Part shown: piece by piece, positions 21,771 to 31,056 of the stretch
Position numbering within the stretch: position 1 is the stretch's first letter
Layout: the number at the start of each line of letters is the position of its first letter
Assembly: GCA_025964115.1 (NCBI GenBank)
Contig: JAOPZM010000251.1
Coordinates: 1 to 37,558 of the forward strand
Reading direction: 5' to 3'
Length of the DNA: 37,558 nt
Source of the DNA: Solirubrobacterales bacterium
Lineage (GTDB): Bacteria > Actinomycetota > Thermoleophilia > Solirubrobacterales > Solirubrobacteraceae
Notes under the pieces: model-generated
Database searches by the model: none
What the model was told of the DNA's origin: nothing
Seen by the model: only the letters and a program-made list of their open reading frames with translations
Made by a program: the position numbers and the translations under genes

Positions 21771-23132
21771 ATGGCGCTCCCGCCAGGCCCGCGTACCCCG
21801 GCCGTAGTGAACACGGTGCGCTTCGCCCAGAGGCCGCTCGCGGCGCTGCGCGAATGGCACAGGCGCTTCGGCGACATCTTCACCGTGAAGATGCTCGGGT
21901 TTGGTGTCGGCGTGTACGTCGTGGATCCGGAGGCGATCCGCGAGCTGTTCACAGGAGACCAATCTGATCTCGAGGCCGGTGAGGCGAACTCGTTCATGGA
22001 GCCGATTCTCGGGCCCCACTCGGTGCTCGTGCTCGACGGGCCCGAGCACCTTCGCCAGCGCAAGCTCCTGCTTCCGCCGTTTCAGGGATCGCGGGTCGGT
22101 GCCTTCAGAGAGATCATCCGCGACGTCGCCGAGCGGGAGATCGCCGGATGGCGGCCGCGTGCCGAGATCGTGCTGCGCGAGCGGATGCGCGCGCTGACGT
22201 TCGAGGTCATCTGCAGGGCGGTCTTCGGCGTGACGCAGCGTGATCGGGTGGAGCGCCTGCGAGAGCGCCTGATCGCCGTCGTGGACAGCAGTCCGCTGTT
22301 CATGATCTCTCGGGCTGCCCGAGCGGACCTGGGGCCGCTGAGCCCGGGCGGGGTATTCGCTCGGCGCCTGCGCGCAGCGGACGCGTTGCTCGAGGAGGAG
22401 ATCGAGCGGCGTCGCGGAGAGCCCGACCTCGAGCAGCGCTCGGACGTCCTCTCGCTGCTGTTGAGGGCGCGCGACGAGCGGGGGGAGGGGATGACGAACG
22501 CGGAGCTGCGCGATGAGCTGTTCACGATGCTCGCGGCCGGGCATGAGACCACGGCGACCGGGCTCGCCTTCGCCTTCGAGCTGCTGCTCCGCACCCCCCG
22601 CGTGCTCGTCCGGCTGCGCGAGGAGCTCGAGCATGGTGAGGACGATGCCTACCTCGACGCGGTCGTCAAGGAGACGCTGAGGCTGCGCCCGGTGCTCGAC
22701 GCCGCCGAGCGGACACTCACGGCTCCCCGCACGGTTGCTGGCTGGGAGCTGCCGCCCGGCGTGAAGGTGTATCCCGGTATCGCTCTCGTGCACATGCGCG
22801 AGGACCTCTATCCGCGTCCCCGCGAGTTCCGTCCCGAGCGCTTCCTTCAGGAGGGAGCCGAGTCGTACTCGTGGCTGCCCTTCGGTGGCGGAATCCGTCG
22901 CTGCATCGGCGCCGCCCTTGCCCTGGCCGAGATGGCGGAGGTGCTGCGCGTGGCGGTGCCGGCTGTCCAGCTGCGACCGTTGCGCGAGCGACCAGACCCG
23001 GTCGTGCTGCGCGGCATCACGCTCGCGCCCAGATACGGCGTGCGCGTCGCCGTCGAGCGAAATGTCTCGCGTCTCCTGCGAGACGCCGGCGGCGATCGTC
23101 AGCCTTCGGAGTTCGTGTCCGCCTCGGCGTAG
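21771..23132 (+). CDS. Cytochrome P450
   Basis: I-helix AAGHETTATGLAF, K-helix KETLRLRP, heme loop FGGGIRRCIGAALALAEM. Confidence 0.96.
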   Translation: MALPPGPRTPAVVNTVRFAQRPLAALREWHRRFGDIFTVKMLGFGVGVYVVDPEAIRELFTGDQSDLEAGEANSFMEPILGPHSVLVLDGPEHLRQRKLLLPPFQGSRVGAFREIIRDVAEREIAGWRPRAEIVLRERMRALTFEVICRAVFGVTQRDRVERLRERLIAVVDSSPLFMISRAARADLGPLSPGGVFARRLRAADALLEEEIERRRGEPDLEQRSDVLSLLLRARDERGEGMTNAELRDELFTMLAAGHETTATGLAFAFELLLRTPRVLVRLREELEHGEDDAYLDAVVKETLRLRPVLDAAERTLTAPRTVAGWELPPGVKVYPGIALVHMREDLYPRPREFRPERFLQEGAESYSWLPFGGGIRRCIGAALALAEMAEVLRVAVPAVQLRPLRERPDPVVLRGITLAPRYGVRVAVERNVSRLLRDAGGDRQPSEFVSASA

Positions 23133-24665: not shown

Positions 24666-25622
24666 ATGGCGGCTGCCTACAGCAGGGGGCTTCAGGAGGT
24701 GGGGGACGGCCTGTTCGCGTACCTGCAGCCCGACGGAAGCTGGGGCTGGAGCAACGCGGGCCTGGTCGCCGACGGCGAGCAGACGCTCCTGATCGACACG
24801 CTCTTCGACCTCAAGCTGACCGAGCAGATGCTCTCGGAGATGCGCCGCGCGGTCCCGGCGGCGAGCCGCATCGACACGCTCGTCAACACGCATGCCAACG
24901 GTGACCACTGCTATGGCAACCAGCTCGTCGGAGACGCGCGCATCGTCGCCTCCGAGCGCACCGCCGCCGAGATGGCGGAGTTGCCCGCGACGGCGATGGC
25001 GGCGCTCGTGCAGCAGGCGCCGAACATGGGCGAGCTCGGCGAGTTCTTCCTGCGCTGCTTCGGGGCCTTCGACTTCGACGGGATCGAAACGGTGCTCCCC
25101 GACGAGAGCTTCAGTGGCGAGCTGACGCTGCGCGTGGGCTCGCGCGAGGTGCGCCTGATCGAGGTCGGACCGGCTCACACGCAGGGCGACACCCTGGCGC
25201 TGCTTCCGGCCGACCGCGTGCTGTTCTCGGGCGACATCCTGTTCAACGGCGCTCATCCGATCGCCTGGGCGGGTCCTGTCTCCAACTGGATCGCGGCATG
25301 TGAGCGGATCCTCGCCATGGACATCGACGTGATCGTCCCCGGCCACGGGCCGCTCGCCGACCAGGAGTCAGTTCGCGAGCTGAAGGCCTATTTCGAGTAC
25401 CTGTACGAGCAGGCCCGTGCGCGGCATGCGGAGGGAATGACCTCGCTGGAGGCGGCCCGGTCGATATCACTCGACCGGTGGGCCGACTGGGGTGAGGGCG
25501 AGCGGCTGGCCGTGAACCTCGCCACGATCTACAGCGAGCTCTCAGACGACGTCGAGCCGCTCAATCCGCTCGAGGCGTTCGAGCAGATGGCCGCGCTCGC
25601 GCGTCCCGCCCCGCCCGGTTGA
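24666..25622 (+). CDS. MBL-fold metallo-hydrolase
   Basis: TLLIDTLFD...LVNTHANGDHCYGNQLV...VGPAHTQGDTLALLPADRVLFSGDILF...VIVPGHGP. Confidence 0.92.
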   Translation: MAAAYSRGLQEVGDGLFAYLQPDGSWGWSNAGLVADGEQTLLIDTLFDLKLTEQMLSEMRRAVPAASRIDTLVNTHANGDHCYGNQLVGDARIVASERTAAEMAELPATAMAALVQQAPNMGELGEFFLRCFGAFDFDGIETVLPDESFSGELTLRVGSREVRLIEVGPAHTQGDTLALLPADRVLFSGDILFNGAHPIAWAGPVSNWIAACERILAMDIDVIVPGHGPLADQESVRELKAYFEYLYEQARARHAEGMTSLEAARSISLDRWADWGEGERLAVNLATIYSELSDDVEPLNPLEAFEQMAALARPAPPG

Positions 25623-25643: not shown

Positions 25644-25661
25644 CACAACCAAGCGGTTGTG
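25644..25661. promoter_or_regulatory. Putative ArsR-family operator
   Basis: Perfect inverted repeat CACAACC-AAGC-GGTTGTG immediately upstream of the ArsR-family gene. Confidence 0.75.
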
Positions 25662-25673
25662 TATGCTGCGGCC

Positions 25674-26018
25674 GTGGTGGCTCACGCGATCACCCGCATC
25701 GGCGCCGCACGGCCGTCCGGCGCCCCCATGATCGCCGACGAGCTGCGGCCGGCTCAGGCGCGAAGGCTGGCGGTGCAGGCAAAGGCGCTTGCCGACCCCA
25801 CCCGATTGCGGATCCTCGACGTCCTGCGCAACGCTGCCCCCGGTGCGCTCTGTCAGTGCGAGCTCACGCCGCTGTTCGACATGAGCCAGCAGGCGCTCTC
25901 CAAGCACCTGAGGGTGCTCACCGGCACCGGCGTCATCGCCAGCGAGCGCTGCGGCGTCTGGACCTACTACTCCCTTGCCCCCGGCGGCCTCGAGGAGATC
26001 CGCTCGTGGCTGGCCTGA
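25674..26018 (+). CDS. arsR: ArsR/SmtB-family metalloregulator
   Basis: AKALADPTRLRILDVLRNAAPGALCQCELTPLFDMSQQALSKHLRVLTGTGVIASERCGVWTYYSLAP; Cys pair LCQCEL; start ambiguous (25659/25674/25728). Confidence 0.9.
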   Translation: MVAHAITRIGAARPSGAPMIADELRPAQARRLAVQAKALADPTRLRILDVLRNAAPGALCQCELTPLFDMSQQALSKHLRVLTGTGVIASERCGVWTYYSLAPGGLEEIRSWLA

Positions 26019-26890
26019 GCGGTGGCGAGGAGTCCGCGACGCACGTCGAGCACGAGATCCGGCTGAACGATCCGCAGACGCTCTACCGGCATTGGGAGGA
26101 CTCGCAGTGGTCACCCTTCGCGATCGATCTCTCCACCGACCGGGCGCAATGGGGCCAGATGGAGGGCGAGGACCGCGATCTGATCTTCTTCGTCCTGTCG
26201 TCGTTGATGGTCGCCGAGGAGCGGATCACGACCAAGTTCTCCGGCCTCGTCGGGGCCTACGGGAGCGAGGAGGAGGCGACGTTCCTCTCGACTCAGCAGG
26301 TCGACGAGGCGCGCCACATGCAGTTCTACGCCCGCTTCCAGGACGAGGTCGTCGCCGCGCCCGATGCCATCGCCGCCCATGTCGAACGGGCACGGGGGCA
26401 GGTATCGGACGCGTTTCGTCAGATCTTCGACGTAGAGCTCGTGCGGGCCCACGAGCGGCTCGTGCAAGAGCCCGCCAGCATGGACGCCAAGGTCCGCTTC
26501 GTCACCCTCTACCACATCATTCTCGAGGCCACCCTCGGCCTCACGAGCTTTAAGTTCACGACCGACCACCTCTCGCGCGAGGCGCTGCTTCCCGGCTTCG
26601 TCGAGGGCTACTCGCGGATCCACCACGATGAGACGCGCCATATCGCCTACGGCGTCTGGTTCCTGCGCGAGGCCGTCCGCTCGCGGCCGGAGAACGCGGA
26701 GACCGTTCGTGAGACGTTGCGCGACCTGCTGCCCTCGGTCGCCGCCTCGCTCGCGCCGCCGGACGCCGGTTCCGGACGGGACTTCGAGGGGATCGGCGCG
26801 AGCAGCGAGAGCATCAGCGCGTTCGCTCTTGGCGGCCTCGAGCGGCGCCTGGAGATAATCGGCGTGCCGCTGAGCTCGATAGTCGCCTGA
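26006..26890 (+). CDS. R2-like diiron/Mn-Fe oxidase (ribonucleotide reductase R2 / R2lox superfamily)
   Basis: WSPFAIDLSTDRAQWGQM; ligand pattern VAEERITTKF, VDEARHMQF, LYHIILEATLGLT, HDETRHIAYGVWF (4 carboxylates, 2 His); GTG start overlaps the arsR end. Confidence 0.85.
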   Translation: MAGLSGGEESATHVEHEIRLNDPQTLYRHWEDSQWSPFAIDLSTDRAQWGQMEGEDRDLIFFVLSSLMVAEERITTKFSGLVGAYGSEEEATFLSTQQVDEARHMQFYARFQDEVVAAPDAIAAHVERARGQVSDAFRQIFDVELVRAHERLVQEPASMDAKVRFVTLYHIILEATLGLTSFKFTTDHLSREALLPGFVEGYSRIHHDETRHIAYGVWFLREAVRSRPENAETVRETLRDLLPSVAASLAPPDAGSGRDFEGIGASSESISAFALGGLERRLEIIGVPLSSIVA

Positions 26891-27294
26891 TGGCTCACGT
26901 CCTCTTCGTGTGCCTCCACAACGCCGGGCGCTCGCAGATCGCTCGCGCGCTGTTCGAGAGAGACGCCGCGCCCCGCCACTCCTCCGAGTCCGCCGGCAGC
27001 ATCGCCGACCCGAACGGTCGTCCGCACCCGGAGGTCGTCGCCGTCATGGCCGAGCTCGGGATCGACATCGCGCAGGCCAGGCCGCGGCGGCTCACGGACG
27101 AGCTCGCCGAGCCTGCGGGCGTGATCGTGACGATGGGCTGCGGCGACTCCTGCCCCTACTTTCCCGGTAAGAGATACGTGGACTGGGAGCTCCCCGATCC
27201 GAAGGGGCAACCGATCGAGGCGGTCCGCGAGACGAGAGATGGGATCGGGCGGCGCGTCACCGAGCTGATCGCAGAGCTCGACGCAGCGGCCTGA
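26890..27294 (+). CDS. arsC: Arsenate reductase / low-MW protein tyrosine phosphatase family
   Basis: VLFVCLHNAGRSQIARALFE P-loop; VTMGCGDSCPYFPGKRYVDWELPDP; ATG overlaps previous TGA (TGATG). Confidence 0.9.
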   Translation: MAHVLFVCLHNAGRSQIARALFERDAAPRHSSESAGSIADPNGRPHPEVVAVMAELGIDIAQARPRRLTDELAEPAGVIVTMGCGDSCPYFPGKRYVDWELPDPKGQPIEAVRETRDGIGRRVTELIAELDAAA

Positions 27295-27345: not shown

Positions 27346-30300
27346 TCAGCTGTAGGTGAAGTTGTCGGCGGGGGGTTGCCTCAGGCTCGTCACTTTGTTC
27401 ACGATCGCCACCACTTCCACCGTCGCAGCTGCATGCGCCGGGCTCAGCACGGTGCATTCGGTGCTGGAGGTGCAGTTGACGGACGTGCTTCGGGTCGTGC
27501 CGAAGAGGAATTTCGTGCCGGTCGTGCCGGGTGTGAATCCGGTTCCCGTGACGATCACGCTCGTTCCTCCTGCGACCGCGCCCGTGTTGGGGGTGACACC
27601 GGTGATCGTAGCCGCGAATTTGAACAGGTCCGCGCTGGTGGCTGCACTCGTGCCGTATTCAGTAGCCACGCTCACTGCGACCTGCCCCGCCGGCTCCGGT
27701 GGCGTCACGGCCGTGATCGACGTGCTCGAGTTGACGGTGAAGCTGCTCGCCGCCGTGCCGCCGAACCTGACCGCCGTGACACCGACGAAGCTCGAGCCCG
27801 TGATCGTGACCGACGTCCCGCCGCCCACCGGGCCGGTCTTCGTCAAGAGCTTCGTGATCGTCGGCGGCGGAACGTAGGTGAAGCGGTCGGCCGAGCTCAC
27901 GGGGCTCGTGCCGGCCGGCGTAGTGACGCGGACGTCCACCGTGCCGGTCCCGGCCGGGGCACTCGCCGTGATGGAGGTCTCCGAGTTGACGGTGAAGCTG
28001 GTCGCTTCGGCGGTGCCAAACTTGACGGCCGTCGCCCCCGTCAGGTTCGCGCCGCTGATGGTCACCGAGGTACCGGAGAGCGGCGCTTTGTTGGGGCTGA
28101 CGCCGGTGATCACCGGTATCGGTTCGCCGTAGGCGATCATGTGGAAGCCTCCGGCCGAGAGGCTTGCGACCTTGGTGATGCCGGCGACCGCGACGGGCAC
28201 GGCGCTCGGGTTGCCGGTTGCGCCGTTGCCCAGGGTGCCCCACTTGTTGACGCCCCAAGCCATGACGCTGCCCGTGTTCAGCAGAGCGGCACTGTCCTGG
28301 CCGCCCGCTGTGATCGAGCTCACGCCCGACAGTTCGCTCACCGCTACAGGCGCGTCCTGACGAGTTTTGATCGTGCCGTTACCGAGCTCGCCGTAGGCGT
28401 CTTCGCCCCACGCCATCACCGTGCCGCCGCTCACGAGCGCCAGGCCGTGCTGGGCTCCGGCCGCGATCGCCGTCACGCCCGAGAGCCCGCTCACCGAGAT
28501 CGGCACGTCGCTGTTGGGTTCTTCGAAGAGGGGGTTGCCGAGCTGTCCGGATTCGTCGCTGCCCCACGCCTGTACGGTCGCTTTGTTGGTGAGCGCCAGG
28601 CTGAACGCGCCACCGGCGGAGATCGCCGTGACCCCGCTCAGTCCTTTGACGGCCACCGGCACGGTGCTCGCGGCTTTGATCGTGCCGTTGCCCAGCTGTC
28701 CGCTTTCGTCGGCTCCCCATGCCATGACGGTCCCGTTCGACATGAGCGCGAGGCTGTGGTCGCGTCCGGCCGCGATCGCCCGTACGCCGGTCAGCCCTTT
28801 CACGGCCACCGGAACTTCGCTTTCGACCGTGTTGCCCGTGCCCAGCTGGCCGCTTTCGTTGTTGCCCCATGCCATCACGGTGCCGTTCGACATCAGGGCG
28901 AGGCTATGTGTGCCTCCAGCCGCGATCGCCCGCACGCCGGAGAGCCCTTCCGTGGCTACGGGCACTTCGCGCGTCCCGTTGGTGCCGTCGCCGAGCTGGC
29001 CGAATCCGTTGTTGCCCCACGCCATCACGGTGCCGTTGGCCAGAAGCGCGAGGCTGTGCAGCCCGCCCGCAGACACCGCGGTCACGAATTTCAGGTTGCT
29101 CACCGGCAGCGGCACGTCGCTCAGCGCGTTGGCCGTGCCGTCGCCGAGCTGACGCGACAGGTTCTGTCCCCACGCGACCGCGCTGTATTTGGTCGTCGCC
29201 ACGGTCAGCGTGGCAGCGTTCGTCGTCGCATTCCCGGCCGTGTTGGTGAAGACGGCGCGATACTGGTGGCCGCTTTCGGACAGCTGTGGGCTTGCGATCG
29301 CGTACTGGCTCGAGGTCGCTCCCGCGATCGCGCTCCAGGTTCCGCCGCCGTTGATAGAGACCTGCCACTGCACCGTGGGTGTGGGGAAGCCCGAGGCCGC
29401 CGCTTCGAACGTGGCGCTTTCGCCGACCTGGACGGTCGTGCTGACCGGATCGAGCGTCACCGTCGGCGGGGCGTAGACGGTCAGGGTGGCGGCGTTGCTC
29501 GTCGCCGTGGCTGCGGCGTTCGTGAACACGGCGCGGTATTGGTTGCCGTCTTCTGAGAACTGGGCGTTGGTGATCGTGAGCTTGGTCGCCGTGGCGCCCG
29601 CGATAGCGCTCCAGGTGCCGCCACCGTCGCTCGAGACTTCCCACTGCACGGTCGGCGTCGGGAATCCCGTCGCCGTCGCTTCGAACGTCGCGGTCTGCCC
29701 TTCGATGACCGTGGTGCTCGTGGGCTGTTTCGTCACGCTGGGTGCCTGATGGACGGTCAGGGTCGCCGCGCTGCTCGTCGCTTTGCCCCCCGCGTTCGCG
29801 AAGACGGCACGGAACTCGTGGCCGTCTTCGGAGATCTGCGTTTTCGCGATCGTGAGCGTGGCCGCGGTTGCGCCCGAGATCGCGGTCCAGGTGCTTCCGT
29901 GGTTGGTCGAGAGTTCCCATTGCACGGTCGGCGTCGGGGATCCCGTCGCGACCGCTTCGAACGTGGCGCTTTCGCCTGCTTCGACGGTCTTGCTGGTCGG
30001 GTTCTGTGTCACCGCGGGCGGGATGTGGACCGTCAGGGTGGCGGCGTTGCTCGTCGCCGTGGCTGCGGCGTTCGTGAACACGGCGCGGTATTGGTTGCCG
30101 TCTTCTGAGAACTGGGCGCTGGTGATCGTGAGCTTGTTCGCCGTGGCTCCTTCGATCGGGCTCCAGGTGCCGCCGCCGTCGCTCGAGACTTCCCATTGGA
30201 CGGTCGGCGCCGGGAATCCCGATGCGGTCGCTTCGAACACGGCGGTCTGGCCTTCGTTGACCGTCTGCGAGGTGGGCTGCTTGGTCACGGCGGGCGCCTT

Positions 30301-31056
30301 CTGCACGGTGAGCGTGGCCGCTTCGCTGAACACCCCTGCGGTGTTGGCCGCGTTCTTGAAGACCGCCCGGTACTGATGCCCGCTGATGGTCGTTTTGGCG
30401 CCGGTGATGGTCAGCTGGTCAGAGGTCGCCCCGGCGATGTTGGCCCAGTTGGCCCCGCCGTTCGACGACGTCTGCCACTGGACGGTCGGTGTGGGGACTC
30501 CCGAGGCCGTGGCTTCGAAGACCGCGTTCTGGCCTTCTTCGACGGTCACGTTCGCCGGTTGTTTGGTGACGACCGGCGCCTTCTGCACGGTGAGGATGGC
30601 CGCTTTGGTCGTGGCTTGGCCCACGCTGTTCGTGAAGACCGCCCGGAACTGGTACCCGCTTTCGGAGGTCGTGGTGCTCGCGATCGTGTACGGGCTTGCG
30701 GTGGCTCCTTCGATCTGGGTCCACGTCACGCCGCCGTTCGTCGAGATTTCCCATTGGATCGTCGGCGTGGGGACGCCTGAGGCGGTGGCCGTGAAGCTCG
30801 CGCTCTGGCCTTCTTCGACCGTGATCGAGAGCGGCTGTTTGGTCACGGCCGGAGCTTTGTTCGTCGTCGCGGCAGCGCTCGCGCGGGAGGGCCTCGCTCC
30901 GGCCGAGCCGCTCAGTAGACCCGAGAGCAGGACGACCGCGAGCAAGGCGAGGAGCAGGAGGCGAGTCGCGGCCACGCAGCACGCGGCGCGCAGGCCGGCA
31001 CCGGCGCCCGCGGCGTTGCCGACTGATCCGCTCCCCCTGGCAGTCCTGTAGGACAT
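27346..31056 (-). CDS. Large secreted/surface protein: signal/TM, six Ig-like repeats, seven RCC1 blades, three IPT/TIG domains
   Basis: Six repeats of AxxVTKQPxSxTVxEGQxAxFEATASGxPxPTVQWExSxxGGxTW; seven ..LALMSNGTVMAWGNNxxGQLGxGT..; three ITGVSPNxGxxxGGTSVTITGxxFxGxTAVxFG. Confidence 0.92.
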   Translation of the reverse strand: MSYRTARGSGSVGNAAGAGAGLRAACCVAATRLLLLALLAVVLLSGLLSGSAGARPSRASAAATTNKAPAVTKQPLSITVEEGQSASFTATASGVPTPTIQWEISTNGGVTWTQIEGATASPYTIASTTTSESGYQFRAVFTNSVGQATTKAAILTVQKAPVVTKQPANVTVEEGQNAVFEATASGVPTPTVQWQTSSNGGANWANIAGATSDQLTITGAKTTISGHQYRAVFKNAANTAGVFSEAATLTVQKAPAVTKQPTSQTVNEGQTAVFEATASGFPAPTVQWEVSSDGGGTWSPIEGATANKLTITSAQFSEDGNQYRAVFTNAAATATSNAATLTVHIPPAVTQNPTSKTVEAGESATFEAVATGSPTPTVQWELSTNHGSTWTAISGATAATLTIAKTQISEDGHEFRAVFANAGGKATSSAATLTVHQAPSVTKQPTSTTVIEGQTATFEATATGFPTPTVQWEVSSDGGGTWSAIAGATATKLTITNAQFSEDGNQYRAVFTNAAATATSNAATLTVYAPPTVTLDPVSTTVQVGESATFEAAASGFPTPTVQWQVSINGGGTWSAIAGATSSQYAIASPQLSESGHQYRAVFTNTAGNATTNAATLTVATTKYSAVAWGQNLSRQLGDGTANALSDVPLPVSNLKFVTAVSAGGLHSLALLANGTVMAWGNNGFGQLGDGTNGTREVPVATEGLSGVRAIAAGGTHSLALMSNGTVMAWGNNESGQLGTGNTVESEVPVAVKGLTGVRAIAAGRDHSLALMSNGTVMAWGADESGQLGNGTIKAASTVPVAVKGLSGVTAISAGGAFSLALTNKATVQAWGSDESGQLGNPLFEEPNSDVPISVSGLSGVTAIAAGAQHGLALVSGGTVMAWGEDAYGELGNGTIKTRQDAPVAVSELSGVSSITAGGQDSAALLNTGSVMAWGVNKWGTLGNGATGNPSAVPVAVAGITKVASLSAGGFHMIAYGEPIPVITGVSPNKAPLSGTSVTISGANLTGATAVKFGTAEATSFTVNSETSITASAPAGTGTVDVRVTTPAGTSPVSSADRFTYVPPPTITKLLTKTGPVGGGTSVTITGSSFVGVTAVRFGGTAASSFTVNSSTSITAVTPPEPAGQVAVSVATEYGTSAATSADLFKFAATITGVTPNTGAVAGGTSVIVTGTGFTPGTTGTKFLFGTTRSTSVNCTSSTECTVLSPAHAAATVEVVAIVNKVTSLRQPPADNFTYS
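29480..30118 (-). repeat. Two identical 87-nt blocks (29480-29566 and 30032-30118) inside the Ig-repeat region
   Basis: Direct comparison: identical gtcagggtggcggcg...ttctgagaactgggcg; offset 552 bp (184 codons, two Ig modules). Confidence 0.9.

Follow-up and report, generated by a model that had tools for sequence, protein, structure and literature searches.

A conserved clade of R2lox-like proteins in the arsenic operons of Solirubrobacterales, probably an undescribed arsenic-detoxifying oxidase

Introduction

What would an R2-like ferritin-fold protein be doing in an arsenic operon? The question is raised by a 37,558-nt stretch of DNA from a Solirubrobacterales bacterium (contig JAOPZM010000251.1; "the window" is this whole stretch), in which the gene for such a protein (R2 hereafter; 26006..26890) lies between genes for an ArsR-type repressor (25674..26018) and an ArsC-type arsenate reductase (26890..27294), all on the plus strand. 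The original prediction, made from the sequence of the window, saw in R2 a metal-dependent oxidase, possibly R2lox-type, recruited to arsenic or to redox/metal stress. Here, we find that ars-linked R2lox-like proteins are a real, conserved clade of a group of soil actinobacteria, new within R2lox-like proteins, and we argue that they are probably oxidases that detoxify arsenic and had not been described before. The literature was searched for R2-like genes located in ars operons, without a hit, and none of the papers searched links R2lox with arsenic.

Linkage to arsenic-resistance genes

R2-like loci (labelled Lnnn) were gathered by searching 299 genomes of the class and 221 of the order, complemented by a contig scan with the pattern VAEERI that is biased towards the clade, the search of the order, which is unbiased, recovering most of the same loci. 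This yielded 32 distinct clade loci, whose proteins are roughly 52-78% identical to the R2 of the window and which are all found in Thermoleophilia (Solirubrobacterales-type) wherever the record names the taxon that fine. An arsR, arsM or arsC gene (the same families being counted throughout) is close by in 26 of the 32, whereas all 20 loci that encode R2-like homologues outside the clade, sampled in the same class with about 8 kb on each side, lack one (Fisher p 4e-9, a value in which independence is overstated, as the loci share ancestry). A chance neighbourhood is thus rejected, and this linkage, surveyed well outside the single genome in which it was noticed, supports the proposed recruitment of an R2-like protein to arsenic.

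The arsR-R2-arsC order from which that proposal started recurs in L078 (and R2-arsC in L070 and L079), but it is a minority form. The commonest neighbour is arsM, found directly upstream of R2 in 14 loci, within about 80 nt and sometimes overlapping, and the typical order is arsR-arsM-R2 with a divergent arsC, ACR3, aquaporin or ArsJ-GAPDH set. Five loci (L034, L060, L063, L069 and L080) encode ArsJ and its GAPDH next to arsR. In L037, the order is arsR-arsI-R2, the product of the gene directly upstream of R2 being a C-As lyase of the ArsI type (over the NF041414 cut-off), and in L059 an ArsI-type gene lies upstream of R2 at a distance of about 0.5 kb, the stretch between the two being 2430-2906. 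Representative neighbours score over the curated cut-offs for ArsM (NF008823, in both representatives checked), ArsI/CadI, ACR3, ArsJ and ArsJ-GAPDH.

Two further types of genes were seen in these neighbourhoods. A cytochrome P450-like gene, recognised by eye, is near R2 in three loci (window 21807-23132, L045 6688-7989 and L173 1151-2500), directly downstream of arsR-R2 in L045, while a YfcE-type metallophosphoesterase gene recurs in ars clusters beside arsC and aquaporin genes (L064/L038 1523-2236, L067 and L081).

A clade close to R2lox, but not R2lox proper

The R2 protein of the window matches PF00268 (Ribonuc_red_sm, 3e-16), the superfamily of class I ribonucleotide reductase (RNR) R2 subunits, and its best NCBIfam match is R2lox (1.2e-35, 123 bits), below the cut-off of 194. 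Its nearest solved sequences are R2lox, and a Foldseek search with its AlphaFold model (pLDDT 92, pTM 0.90) returned R2lox at all of ranks 1-34 (TM about 0.8), with RNR R2c next, so that the R2lox-type label stands as far as the predicted fold is concerned. Identity in structural alignments is only 20-26%, however, and phylogenetic analysis, suggested from the outset as a check, places the protein on a separate branch: in an IQ-TREE phylogeny that left out E. coli NrdB and distant R2lox, the 26 ars-clade rows are monophyletic (99/100) and separate both from the homologues and from two characterized R2lox proteins retained in the tree. With the omitted sequences included, a first tree showed very long branches and supported the clade weakly (68). 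The clade profile found no members beyond the order in 397 genomes of the phylum, and a plasmid search returned no clade members, only relatives of about 26-29% identity, by which a spread beyond the order is rejected.

Where the clade departs from R2lox can be read residue by residue, with R2lox numbering carried over from an alignment of the window R2 with solved R2lox sequences, and with counts made on 26 clade members and 19 non-clade homologues (45 sequences). The six-residue dinuclear metal site was correctly read in the original prediction: its ligands E71 (in EERI, 26216..26227), E101 and H104 (in EARH, 26306..26317), E174 (in YHIILE, 26510..26527) and E209 and H212 (in ETRH, 26630..26641) are invariant in the clade and in the homologues, and are the six ligands of R2lox. 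So is the tyrosine that precedes the third carboxylate by five residues, Y169, which corresponds to the cross-link tyrosine Y162 of R2lox and is invariant in all 45 sequences. The isoleucine near the first carboxylate was also rightly singled out, since I74 occupies the position of the R2lox cross-link valine, Val72, and is found in 26/26 clade members versus a valine in 19/19 homologues. At the position of Ala171, a conserved residue of the R2lox ligand tunnel (PMC6399176), the clade has a glycine (G178 in the window, 26537..26539; 26/26), the homologues an alanine (19/19). Two more positions differ: G68, which is an alanine in the clade and a glycine in the homologues, and Y175, which is a phenylalanine in 23/26 clade members and a glutamine in 17/19 homologues.

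Val72 (completely) and Ala171 have been stated to be conserved across R2lox, RNR R2 proteins having a phenylalanine at the second position (PMC6060897, PMC6399176). Because both are replaced throughout, by isoleucine and glycine, the clade is not R2lox proper, and in that respect the initial label is not quite right. The cross-link chemistry nevertheless remains feasible, since a V72I variant of R2lox still forms the cross-link (PMC6060897). Cysteines are absent from 21/26 clade proteins versus 6/19 homologues, a composition suggestive, although no proof, of an enzyme that would meet trivalent arsenic.

Some R2 genes of the clade are apparently frameshifted or truncated (L078 8001-8818, the same locus as L047; L080 8001-8507; L049 1335-1679). 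This might reflect a dispensable gene or errors of assembly.

Not a ribonucleotide reductase subunit

Could R2 simply be an RNR small subunit with a distant partner? The protein scores far below the NCBIfam RNR cut-offs, and it has Gly178 where RNR R2 proteins have a phenylalanine. In the genome of the window, the search for large RNR subunits gave only a B12-dependent class II NrdJ (a single PF02867 hit, over cut-off) and none of class I, although this genome is 85% complete and one could have been missed. Class II NrdJ needs no R2. An RNR small subunit is rejected on these grounds, which bear out the early view that a role in deoxynucleotide synthesis is unlikely, and a grouping with canonical NrdB served by a remote NrdA, the obvious objection to that view, is at odds with the R2lox matches that precede R2c (and NrdB/NrdF) in Foldseek.

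The same genome encodes two more R2-like homologues (G000:C198:6926-7747, or L002, and G000:C65:5823-6626, or L003). The C-terminal extension of L003 resembles by eye an SCP2-type domain, and many members of the class have similarly long open frames.

Anatomy and regulation of the operon

The tight arsR-R2-arsC operon that had been described behind a palindrome was confirmed in its open reading frames, gene order and family membership. ArsR matches HTH_5 (1.1e-9) and NCBIfam HTH_metalloreg (83 bits, cut-off 55), and has the winged-helix domain and thiol metal-site motif of ArsR/SmtB repressors, a CxC (in ALCQCEL) kept in all 22 aligned ArsRs; an N-terminal CC pair present in most of these relatives is missing from it. 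The ArsC-type protein matches PF01451 (LMWPc, 4e-20, over cut-off), scores below cut-off for the NCBIfam arsenate reductase equivalogs, and displays the features of LMW-phosphatase-type ArsC, that is, a CX5R P-loop (CLHNAGR), further cysteines (GCGDSC) and a DP loop (DPKG).

The perfect inverted repeat CACAACC-AAGC-GGTTGTG (25644..25661), the probable ArsR operator, means little alone, since 18% of 200-bp stretches drawn at random from the window contain a perfect 7+7 palindrome. Its credibility comes from the recurrence of the layout: in L058, the identical palindrome is again followed by TATGCT and, after six bases, by GTG, and L078 shares this arrangement except for mismatches in its palindrome. 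The hexamer TATGCT (25662..25667), six bases 5' of the ArsR start, is a probable -10 element, and the shared spacing suggests that ArsR probably starts, leaderless, at GTG 25674. The TGATG overlap that couples R2 to arsC was seen as described and recurs in L070 and L078. The 13-nt overlap of arsR and R2 is less secure, as it depends on GTG 26006: several orthologues begin with [GT]TG-AGC, and since the aligned codon of the window is the CTG of CTG-AGC at 26015, the overlap may be 4 nt instead.

On either side of the operon are genes of another kind. A metallo-beta-lactamase-fold hydrolase gene (24666-25622, same strand) ends just 5' of the operator and was not found beside other clade members, and a gene on the minus strand (27346-30975) encodes a long repeat protein, probably of the cell surface, in which Ig-like, RCC1-like and IPT-like stretches can be recognised by eye.

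What might R2 do to arsenic?

Our tentative answer, to which we give a little less than even confidence, is that the three genes form one ArsR-repressed arsenic operon in which R2 is an O2-activating dimetal oxidase that most likely detoxifies trivalent arsenicals. Upon induction, ArsR would leave its operator and R2 would be made together with ArsC or ArsM. The soluble ferritin-fold protein would then bind two metals (Mn/Fe, as in R2lox, or Fe/Fe), probably form a Tyr169-Ile74 ether cross-link and, to judge from its conserved ligands and the R2lox precedent, activate O2 for a two-electron oxidation of trivalent arsenicals, the favoured substrate being methylarsenite that comes from the ArsM of the cell itself or of a neighbour. 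R2 would thereby take over, within an ars operon, the oxidation of trivalent organoarsenicals for which ArsH serves elsewhere, but by different means, since ArsH is a flavoprotein, whereas R2 is a ferritin-fold dimetal protein matching families other than TIGR02690. A fully specified version is possible but doubtful: Solirubrobacterales would oxidise methylarsenite with this Mn/Fe or diiron enzyme, naturally cross-linked between Tyr and Ile, which would have replaced ArsH without being homologous to it and would be the first protein of the R2lox type to have an arsenical as its substrate.

Several observations weigh against this proposal. No ars gene is nearby in L055, L071 and L062, which have wide flanks, nor in the divergent L075; two other loci without an ars neighbour are uninformative, L049 being a fragment and L173 a 3.7-kb contig with a divergent ArsR-type HTH gene. 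No ArsM, ArsI or ACR3 was found in the genome of the window at its 85% completeness, and an ArsM hit is missing from 11 of 28 clade genomes (that of the window and ten others), for which reason R2 must be useful without an ArsM of its own. Genome-level co-occurrence with ArsM is weak (17/28 clade genomes versus 82/193, p = 0.10). ArsH (TIGR02690) was found in 0/221 genomes of the order (a Caulobacter control was positive), and since no sampled member of the order has it, its absence is weakened as evidence specific to R2 carriers. Finally, the R2lox proteins known so far have aliphatic chains as substrates or ligands. It is relevant here that arsH and arsI serve non-methylating bacteria facing methylarsenite made by others. 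Methylarsenite has been described as a microbial antibiotic (PMC6205960).

Some of these points lend weight to a different and, in our estimate, unlikely explanation, namely that R2 is a general stress oxidase which, in cells exposed to arsenic, limits metal/oxygen damage or hydroxylates lipids of the membrane and leaves arsenic itself untouched. R2lox proteins bind fatty acids (PMC6060897, PMC6399176), and the clade genomes without ArsM, like the three wide-flanked loci without ars neighbours, would be accounted for. The coupling to arsM and arsC is, however, specific and repeated, and work on lipids would sooner be expected of the non-clade homologues, none of which is ars-linked in the sample.

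Rather less probable is an oxidative demethylation, in which R2 would hydroxylate the methyl group of methylarsenicals and break the C-As bond as ArsI does. C-H hydroxylation has a precedent in the superfamily, GkR2loxI being reported as an alkane hydroxylase (PMC10867098), and ArsM or ArsI adjoins R2. ArsI, which fills the slot of ArsM in L037, is a non-haem iron, O2-dependent enzyme, as R2 is proposed to be, with a VOC/glyoxalase fold and a vicinal Cys pair, and R2 has no conserved cysteine. A demethylase coupled to ArsM would undo the methylation, however, and in L037 R2 would duplicate the ArsI encoded directly upstream.

The loci in which ArsJ and GAPDH genes accompany arsR bring to mind a cytosolic As(III) oxidase that supplies arsenate to the GAPDH/ArsJ export route, which we consider improbable: this fits less well because R2 and ArsC are in one transcript in the window and several other loci, where ArsC would reverse the reaction, and most loci are without ArsJ. 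Least convincing is a step in the making of an organoarsenical natural product downstream of ArsM, a very remote prospect despite the ArsM-R2 coupling and the location of arsinothricin genes in ars operons (PMC8552651), as R2 is also kept by genomes that lack an ArsM hit and the clusters resemble resistance sets, no other biosynthetic gene recurring among the neighbour families.

Concluding remarks

What the R2lox superfamily acts on in nature is still largely an open question, and the conserved gene order described here points to arsenite and methylarsenicals. With its isoleucine, the clade also offers a natural counterpart of the V72I variant obtained by mutation in structural work. If R2 does oxidise trivalent arsenicals, an oxygen-activating dimetal enzyme would be added to the arsenic-resistance repertoire, which could explain how ArsM-bearing actinobacteria that are devoid of ArsH survive their own methylarsenite.
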